This document shows positions 23,929 through 26,770 of a stretch of 64,000 nt of DNA, one piece after another. Within the stretch, counting starts at the first letter, position 1. The number at the start of each line of letters is the position of its first letter. Under the pieces are notes generated by a model. The model was given only the letters and a program-made list of their open reading frames with translations, did not search any database and was not told the DNA's origin. A program made the translations under genes and the position numbers. Origin of the DNA: Bacteroidota bacterium (GTDB taxonomy: Bacteria > Bacteroidota > Ignavibacteria > UBA10030); assembly GCA_025454835.1 (NCBI GenBank), contig JALONQ010000006.1, forward strand, positions 1 to 64,000, written 5' to 3'.

Positions 23929-25200
<1,272 letters not shown>

Positions 25201-25236
25201 CGATATCCCTGATTAGACGCTTGGACGATACATGAT

Positions 25237-25345
25237 CCACGAATGGTCACGAATCGACACGAATGAGAGATCCCATCTCTTCACTCGTCTCTCTTCGCGT
25301 AGGTTCGTGCAAGGGACATCCGATGTCCGTTCGTGCCATTCGTGG
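25237..25345. repeat. Long inverted repeat enclosing two inner hairpins
   Basis: Outer arms CCACGAATGGTCACGAA (25237-25253) and TTCGTGCCATTCGTGG (25330-25345) pair with one bulged base. Inside lie AGAGAT-CCC-ATCTCT (25266-25280, extendable to about 25258-25287) and the palindrome GGACATCCGATGTCC (25314-25328). The whole would fold as a multibranched cruciform or RNA between the divergent murA and purA genes. Confidence 0.65.
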
Positions 25346-25402
25346 TGTGTCTTGATCTTTTGATGGTACCCCGAAAACCCCCGAAACGCAAAACGGTCCG
25401 CC

Positions 25403-25431
25403 TTGTCTTTCCTCGTATTTTGTGATATTCT
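25403..25431 (+). promoter_or_regulatory. purA promoter
   Basis: TTGTCT at 25403-25408, 17-bp spacer, TATTCT at 25426-25431 with an extended TGA just before it. The predicted leader to ATG 25475 is about 36 nt and has no Shine-Dalgarno. Confidence 0.65.
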
Positions 25432-25474
25432 CAATTTGTTGTCACACGCCGCACATCCTTAGCGAGCACTCCGC

Positions 25475-26770
25475 ATGTCCGTCCAGATCATCGTCGGCGC
25501 CCAGTGGGGCGATGAAGGCAAAGGTAAGATCGTCGACCACTTGAGCGAGAAGGTCGACATCGTCGCCCGCTATCAAGGGGGGGCCAATGCCGGCCATACC
25601 GTCATCCTACCCCCTGTTCGGGGCCAGGCGCCGCGTCAATTCGTCCTTCACCTTATTCCTTCGGGCATCTTCCACCGACACGTCCTCTGCGTGATCGGCA
25701 ACGGCGTCGTGCTCGATCCTGTGGCGTTGATGGACGAGATCGGGCAGCTGCAGGAAGCGGGCATTCGCATCGACGGACGCCTCCTGATCAGCCACAATGC
25801 GCACCTCATCATGCCGTATCACAAACGGCTGGATGCGATCCGCGAAGAAGGGGCGCAGAAGATCGGGACGACCGGCCGGGGGATCGGGCCCTCCTACATC
25901 GACAAGTATTCCAGGACGGGCATCCGCGTGGTGGACCTGCTCGACCGGGACGTCCTCTGCGCCAAATTGAAGCAGAACCTCGAAACGACAAACGAACTTC
26001 TGAAGAAGGTGTACGACCGAGACGAACTGGATGTCGACCGTATCATCGCCGAGTATGAGGATTTTGACAAGAAGATCGACCCCTACATCACCGACACGGC
26101 AGACTATCTGAACCGGGCGTTGTCGAAGGGCAAGGCAGTTCTTGCGGAAGGCGCCCAGGGCGCGCTGCTCGACGTCGACCATGGCACCTATCCGTTCGTC
26201 ACGTCGTCGAACCCGACGAGCGGCGGCGCGTGCACGGGCCTCGGCATCCCTCCGACCGCCATCGATTCGGTCGTCGGAGTCGTCAAGGCCTACTCGACGC
26301 GCGTCGGGAACGGGCCGTTCCCGACGGAACAGCTGAACGAGACCGGCGAGCGCTTGCGGAAGATCGGAGGCGAGTTTGGCGCGACGACAGGCCGCCCGCG
26401 TCGATGCGGATGGCTCGACCTGGTCAGTCTGTCGTATTCCTGCCGGATCAACGGCATCGACCGCATCACCGTGACGAAACTCGACGTGCTGGACTCGTTC
26501 GACGAGATCAAGGTTTGCACCGGCTACAAGGTCGGCAACCGCGTGCTCGCTCGCTTTCCGACCGACGTGCAGACGCTCGAGAAGGTCCAGCCAGTCTACA
26601 GGACCTTCTCCGGCTGGAACGAGCCGACCTCGGATATCCGCCGCTTCAGCGACCTGCCGTCGAAGGCGCAGTCGTATCTTCGCGCCGTCGAGCGACTCCT
26701 GAAGGTCCGGCTGTGGCTCGTCTCCGTCGGCGCCCGTCGCGACCAGACCCTTTCCGTACCACGTCGCTGA
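25475..26770 (+). CDS. purA: Adenylosuccinate synthetase
   Basis: 431 residues. It makes adenylosuccinate from IMP, aspartate and GTP in AMP synthesis. Seen: the N-terminal P-loop VGAQWGDEGKGKIVD with catalytic Asp, ARYQGGANAGHT with the catalytic His, GTTGRGIGPSY, AEGAQGALLDVDHGTYPFVTSSN, and the Asp-binding GATTGRPRRCGW. The start is the first ATG after the promoter. The window also encodes adenosine deaminase (46420-47526), a later step in the same purine pool. Confidence 0.97.
   Translation: MSVQIIVGAQWGDEGKGKIVDHLSEKVDIVARYQGGANAGHTVILPPVRGQAPRQFVLHLIPSGIFHRHVLCVIGNGVVLDPVALMDEIGQLQEAGIRIDGRLLISHNAHLIMPYHKRLDAIREEGAQKIGTTGRGIGPSYIDKYSRTGIRVVDLLDRDVLCAKLKQNLETTNELLKKVYDRDELDVDRIIAEYEDFDKKIDPYITDTADYLNRALSKGKAVLAEGAQGALLDVDHGTYPFVTSSNPTSGGACTGLGIPPTAIDSVVGVVKAYSTRVGNGPFPTEQLNETGERLRKIGGEFGATTGRPRRCGWLDLVSLSYSCRINGIDRITVTKLDVLDSFDEIKVCTGYKVGNRVLARFPTDVQTLEKVQPVYRTFSGWNEPTSDIRRFSDLPSKAQSYLRAVERLLKVRLWLVSVGARRDQTLSVPRR

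Follow-up and report, generated by a model that had tools for sequence, protein, structure and literature searches.

Four described systems come closest to the 109-bp element that lies between murA and purA in the window, i.e., the whole 64,000-nt stretch of DNA analyzed here. Each comparison is based on the part of the published account that was available to us. The hupL MITE of Thiomargarita is linked to PD-(D/E)XK_2 genes; it has 19-bp inverted ends and 10-bp direct repeats, with hits on 260 of 439 contigs (PMC4853749). The likeness lies in a short, gene-less inverted repeat with relatives in ORFs that have a PD-(D/E)XK nuclease domain and not a DDE transposase. The element in the window differs in that its arms are arrays of a short word, a single copy is present, no clear target duplication is seen and the linked family is GxxExxY (PDDEXK_3). 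The Coxiella 23S rRNA IVS encodes a four-helix S23 protein and carries tandem heptamers (GACAGAT) before the ORF (PMC4990558). Here the resemblance concerns a small ORF in a stem loop, and heptamers that are similar to the 7-nt arrays we find around four-helix genes. As far as the available part of the account goes, these heptamers are an independent case of the seven-base array kind, whereas the window element has no ORF, is intergenic instead of being located in 23S rRNA, and is built of 10-bp words.

Heptamer repeats of TAACTGA have been described in Beggiatoaceae, Cyanobacteria and Bacteroidetes, with one inverted set among 169, and the available part of that report gives no neighbor-gene pattern (PMC4679880). 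They share with the element the organization as intergenic arrays of a short word and a scattered, possibly horizontal distribution, but in the text at hand they are direct heptamer repeats. Finally, REPs are palindromes of 20-40 bp with a GTAG or CGTC tag and a high copy number, those with GTAG being tied to RAYTs (PMC3733652). Like the element, they are intergenic palindromes that occur in several phyla, according to the same portion of that paper.

Taken against this background, we consider it likely that the element belongs to a widespread class of inverted word arrays, as a MITE-like member without a gene, and that a copy entered the murA leader, where a GxxExxY protein may act on it in trans. 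The parts of this reading differ in strength: class membership and arm pairing rest on data, the insertion is likely, and mobilization by a GxxExxY nuclease is put forward as a hypothesis.

Anatomy of the element in the murA-purA gap

The gap is divergent, as the original prediction had it, with murA on the minus and purA on the plus strand. Its features are the following:

23929..25200, minus strand: murA, identified as an ORF and by tblastn to relatives; its leader probably holds the element
25475..26770, plus strand: purA, identified as an ORF, divergent from murA and matched in 31 of 32 family genomes
25237..25345, no strand assigned: whole inverted word-array element, 109 bp, delimited from folds with shuffles and coordinates
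25237..25264, plus strand: left arm, three CACGAAT words with a 10-bp period; the same triple array is found in at least 117 stretches elsewhere
25329..25345, plus strand: right arm, the complement of the outer left arm, from pairing
25265..25282, plus strand: inner hairpin GAGAGATCCCATCTCTTC, from folds
25314..25328, plus strand: inner hairpin GGACATCCGATGTCC, from folds
25362..25392, minus strand: candidate murA promoter TTTG-N20-TACCATC, outside the element, a relaxed match only

The outermost segment of the left arm, CCACGAATGG (25237-25246), is the exact complement of 25336-25345. Past one bulged base, the CACGAAT word at 25248-25254 pairs with 25329-25335 by six Watson-Crick pairs and one G-T pair, and the outer arms thus comprise 17 pairs in total, with one G-T and one bulge. 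The three CACGAAT words start at 25238, 25248 and 25258, exactly 10 bp apart, and are opposed by TTCGTG at 25304, 25330 and 25339; the outer spacers are unequal by the one-base bulge. Facing arrays of a repeated short word are therefore present in the element itself, and so are terminal inverted repeats without coding capacity, as in a MITE. The spacer between the arms is short and lacks a gene; unlike at other loci described below, no GxxExxY gene lies between them.

As RNA the element scores -52.0 on the plus strand (z -4.2) and -51.2 on the minus strand (z -4.8), and as single-stranded DNA it scores -28.3 (z -4.6); in each of the three cases 0 of 200 shuffles were as good. The anatomy initially proposed, i.e., arms of CACGAAT words and inner hairpins within 109 bp, is thus correct. 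Instead of the two inner hairpins that had been counted, the plus-strand RNA fold has three, the middle one being weak. The element may act as a DNA cruciform or as an RNA hairpin. It had also been argued that this is not a terminator, and we agree: as an intrinsic terminator, we could identify a single weak terminator-like match of 7 pairs, 3 of them G-C, which is near chance (shuffle mean 0.4).

When a flank is locally aligned with the reverse complement of the facing flank, the arms of the element score 15.5, and no facing arms with a score of at least 16 are present in the whole window. A repeat finder (seed 9, length 12) gave no inverted pair at the element, since its exact arm is only 10 bp. 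At the borders, TGATC overlaps the left end (25233-25237) and is found again 7 nt past the right arm (25353-25357), with no alignable empty site. No clear target-site duplication was found at the element, and the gaps of the relatives have diverged too far to reveal an exact empty site.

Occurrence in relatives and probable position in the murA leader

In the own genome, a 301-base query against the 47-contig assembly matched only itself, and no second copy was found. Only one further site of this genome (C1:141115) has two CACGAAT words within 12 bases, and it lacks facing arms; no partner gene flanked by a CACGAAT word was found in the genome. A search with the element against 100 relatives gave no match beyond the own genome itself, two short segments of the sister genome and one coding-like stretch in a further genome (G023). 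In the sister (G001, same genus), clusters of CACGAAT/TTCGTG words with no gene seen between them lie at two other sites (L006 and L008).

The family genomes in which purA was matched yielded 30 loci, the own one included, of which 25 (own plus 24 relatives) have murA upstream of purA; in the other five, murA was not found within 1,500 bases. The CACGAAT word occurs in the murA-purA gap of none of the 24 relatives, the one from the same genus included, and four of them have a single CACGAA or TTCGTG there. Because of this absence, the element is not a conserved murA RNA, and a structured RNA conserved at murA or purA is not supported; Rfam likewise gave no family at the gathering threshold and nothing useful at a lax one (best 15.5 bits vs. 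a threshold of 54.8). In one related genus (g9; L137, L145, L152 and L154), the gap measures 766-851 bases and, judged by eye, seemingly contains an extra nitroreductase-like gene.

Upstream of murA, 23 of 24 relatives share a motif TTTG-N18-21-TA(T/A)(T/A)T, located 15 to 65 nt from the start (median 51). This conserved TTTG-N-TATAT motif (gaps L132-L160) is a likely promoter. The strict motif is missing in one relative (L134) and in the own gap, where the candidate TTTG-N20-TACCATC at 25392-25362 lies 163 nt from murA, or 54 nt when the 109-bp element is removed. The agreement of the latter distance with the median of the relatives, compared to the 163 nt now present, indicates that the element probably entered the murA leader. 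An insertion just downstream of the promoter is probably the simplest reading, the own promoter being a putative one assigned from a relaxed match. Farther upstream of murA a sigma-70-like match is present at 25445-25417 on the minus strand, and a transcript starting there would also cross the element. In the case of purA, the promoter pattern that we tried matched 7 of 25 gaps, but the own gap is not among them and we therefore claim no purA promoter.

According to the model we favor, the copy would have entered the untranslated murA leader in this lineage, between promoter and start codon, and it would now give the murA mRNA a strong stem-loop close to its 5' end. The leader still has 36 nt between the element and the start codon, which may be why such a structure is tolerated. 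An alternative is that the element is a structured RNA in the leader that controls murA in cis and has been kept for this role. Its probable position in the leader and its very stable RNA fold would fit, and a 5' stem-loop could protect an mRNA. Yet the element is missing from all 24 relatives with a readable gap, the same words adjoin unrelated genes in many phyla, and Rfam gave no match at threshold. We regard this alternative as unlikely.

The copy search also bears on REP/BIME-type palindromes moved by a RAYT (Y1) transposase, to which an intergenic, palindromic and dispersed element might belong and for which two Y1_Tnp matches exist in the own genome. Both loci were fetched, but each holds one CACGAA/TTCGTG six-mer and no array, and further copies of the element are lacking in this genome. 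Moreover, no GTAG or CGTC tag was seen at the ends of its arms, and its anatomy is unlike that of the 20-40 bp tagged REPs as far as these are covered by the part of the source available (PMC3733652). This origin is very improbable.

The triple CACGAAT array across phyla

Outside the own genome the situation is different. The three-word pattern, which amounts to 21 fixed bases, is present in at least 117 stretches of a genome collection with a search space of 257 billion bases, whereas we estimate that about 0.1 would be expected. Among the matches listed, array-bearing records come from Verrucomicrobia, Planctomycetota, Chloroflexi, Acidobacteria, Desulfobacterales, Spirochaetes, Nitrosomonas and others. 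Viral contigs contain 37 stretches with the triple array vs. 5 with the reversed pattern, and in the own phylum 4 of 395 genomes (own included) have the array vs. 0 for the reversed pattern; a plasmid collection gave no match. The CACGAAT words had been described as dispersed repeats, which is true across bacterial phyla but not within the own genome. In the same way, the genome-wide search for the arms that had been recommended reveals no second element at home and copies in other phyla. The MITE-like character is accordingly retained for the inverted ends and the lack of a gene, but it is not backed by multiple copies in the own genome or by a partner with the same word there.

The arms mostly face each other. 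Among the matches listed, 83 neighboring arm pairs lie within 1500 bp, 57 of which are directed inward, 5 outward and 21 in tandem. In 12 of 31 exact-word facing pairs among these matches, the outer three-base spacer is fully complementary, vs. 3.4 expected; the inner spacer showed no such covariation (7 listed pairs, 9 matches vs. 7.9 expected). Allowing one mismatch per word gave a set of 60 pairs, reduced to 42 by keeping one per genome, with genomes assigned by record title. In these 42 genomes the outer spacer is complementary at 83 of 126 positions (54.9 when shuffled) and the positions just outside the arms at 101 of 126 (78.5 when shuffled), values reached by 0 of 10,000 shuffles each. 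Pairing is thus kept among the copies elsewhere, while the relatives have no orthologous copy. The original prediction had named the combination of no other copies and no conserved pairing as the outcome that would speak against it, and this is not what we find, since pairing is kept in those copies.

The genes around the arrays show no strong preference in orientation: 73 of the 117 listed arrays have both neighbors seen and no overlap with a naive ORF, and these comprise 37 tandem, 21 convergent and 15 divergent cases. A naive ORF of at least 70 aa is overlapped by 32 of the 117. The same neighborhoods were relevant to the idea that the element derives by decay from an ordinary IS, as a non-autonomous remnant whose ends contain CACGAAT words by chance. 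A short spacer enclosed by inverted terminal arms is indeed MITE-like, but the assembly holds no second match, and no transposase is present among the 25 most frequent families of 125 small neighbor ORFs (up to 330 aa, larger ORFs being left out). In addition, arms that are word arrays with covarying spacers are unlike fixed IS ends, and we consider such a remnant quite unlikely.

Nuclease and four-helix genes between word arrays

Based on the loci compared here, an element of the class can be outlined as a pair of arrays that face each other, each repeating a short word (in the present case CACGAAT every 10 bp), with a short, hairpin-bearing spacer between them. At other loci, such arms flank a small PD-(D/E)XK nuclease gene of the GxxExxY type, with other words in the own genome and CACGAAT in the sister. 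Among the matches listed, GxxExxY (TIGR04256, PDDEXK_3) accounts for 2 of the 125 small ORFs (70-330 aa) next to CACGAAT arrays. At one locus (L035) facing CACGAAT arms cleanly enclose the GxxExxY gene; at another (L098) the arms on either side of the gene point the same way, and a facing arm follows only farther out. A looser case is found in the sister (L208), with three CACGAAT-type words before and one after the GxxExxY match. That match (G001:C58:6785-7066) is part of an 878-codon open frame, which may reflect a fusion or a frameshift. The 117 listed array loci contain eight GxxExxY hits, three of which are within 150 bp of an arm, a zone that holds 6% of the DNA.

We found 9 GxxExxY matches in the own genome and 11 in the sister, and many of their flanks carry facing arrays; those in the own genome are of other words (CACAGAG, CGCAGAG and CGCCAAG). 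For a general comparison, inverted arms were scored with a cut-off of 15: the flank upstream of the gene was aligned locally to the reverse-complemented downstream flank. Hits numbered 82 in 78 of 80 loci, and 68 flank sets (66 loci) were left after short or identical flanks had been dropped. Inverted arms of at least 15 are present in 48 of the 68, vs. 51 of 999 swapped pairs, and 20 sets score below 15. Controls gave 0 of 21 for PIN-toxin genes from the same genomes, and a best score of 14 for purA (n=29). The arms are seen in family genomes (27/40) as well as in array-bearing genomes of many phyla (21/28), and in the own genome in 5 of 7 sets. CACGAA/TTCGTG words on both sides occur in 9 of the 68, by a loose criterion without a control. 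GxxExxY is carried by 47 of 49 array-bearing genomes, taken from 50 of the 117 listed array loci, vs. 50 of 99 genomes of the own phylum, a contrast confounded by phylum and habitat.

With respect to the protein, E19, D59 and K71 are invariant in 45 GxxExxY members, and E69, Q83 and Y87 are nearly so, a pattern that we take to match active RecB/Cas4-type PD-(D/E)XK nucleases. The structure model is confident (pLDDT 93.6). A profile search against PDB sequences gave nothing at E 0.01, and the fold search had no match at E 0.001 (best E 0.016); the plausible top fold matches are nonetheless PD-(D/E)XK nucleases, namely Bax1, a Holliday-junction resolvase, the homing endonuclease I-Bth0305I and SSO0001, the last presumably being Cas4. 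A GxxExxY-type nuclease of this kind may act in trans on the arms of gene-less copies such as the one next to murA.

A second protein family has a similar setting. Four-helix genes (S23/IVS-type, S23/Avd-like) are often surrounded by inverted 7-nt arrays, with scores of at least 15 in 15 of 28 family loci vs. 1 of 398 swapped pairs. The own genome (G000) has 15 matches to TIGR02436 (e.g., L297, L298 and L300), and two of these copies are located on the contig of the window (C22), outside the window. The arrays of both families differ in period. In GxxExxY flanks, 5-mers recur mainly at lags of 8-10, with 85 per 10 kb at lag 9 compared to 10-20 at lags 4-7, and less strongly at lags 15-21. In the flanks of four-helix genes (TIGR02436), peaks of 114-159 are seen at lags 7, 14 and 21, where the background is close to 50. 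No peak of this kind is present in PIN flanks. Flanks of purA (L131-L159) have a rise at lags 14-15 (47 and 39). The word spacing of exactly 10 bp in the element could point to protein-binding arrays phased to the DNA helix, palindromy being a by-product. This is a quite unlikely explanation, since the words differ between elements of one genome, the flanks peak at 9 for one family and at 7 for the other, and complementarity across the spacer is kept. Flanks of DUF559 genes (PF04480; L356-L385) are inverted in 11 of 28 cases vs. 21 of 398 swapped pairs, without a tandem period. Several of them are of the CCCCTCTCC kind and possibly represent a third type of element.

On this basis we tentatively propose, as a possibility that we would not yet call probable, an undescribed class of selfish elements in many phyla. 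A minimal PD-(D/E)XK nuclease (GxxExxY) or a four-helix S23/Avd-like protein would be encoded between inverted word arrays, each element would have its own word and its arms would change word together, and gene-less copies would be mobilized or maintained in trans, perhaps through cleavage of a cruciform formed by the arrays. Judged by titles and the beginnings of abstracts, we recognized no description of the link between arrays and GxxExxY in the open-access literature searched, and searches for the words themselves yielded no paper. Many environmental genomes contain short-word arrays scattered in their gaps, and no origin has been accepted for these. With a link to two protein families that have several copies in each genome, what was a nuisance repeat becomes a genetic system that can be tested. 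This raises the questions of whether the nuclease recognizes its own word or a cruciform, why the arms seem to change together, and whether such elements rewire the leaders of essential genes like murA.

The joint change of the arms is illustrated by one GxxExxY element with the same flanking genes in both species (L192 in the own genome, L202 in the sister). Its arm word resembles CGCAGAG in one species and CGCAATG in the other. Compared within a species, the two arms match with scores of 14.5 and 21.0, whereas between species the downstream arms reach 10.5 and upstream vs. downstream 8.0; the upstream flanks match between species through their coding part. Both arms of this element thus seem to have changed word together, in a single case, the two four-helix pairs not being clear. 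Three genes altogether, one GxxExxY and two four-helix, keep the same position in the two sister species, and they are therefore not hopping fast.
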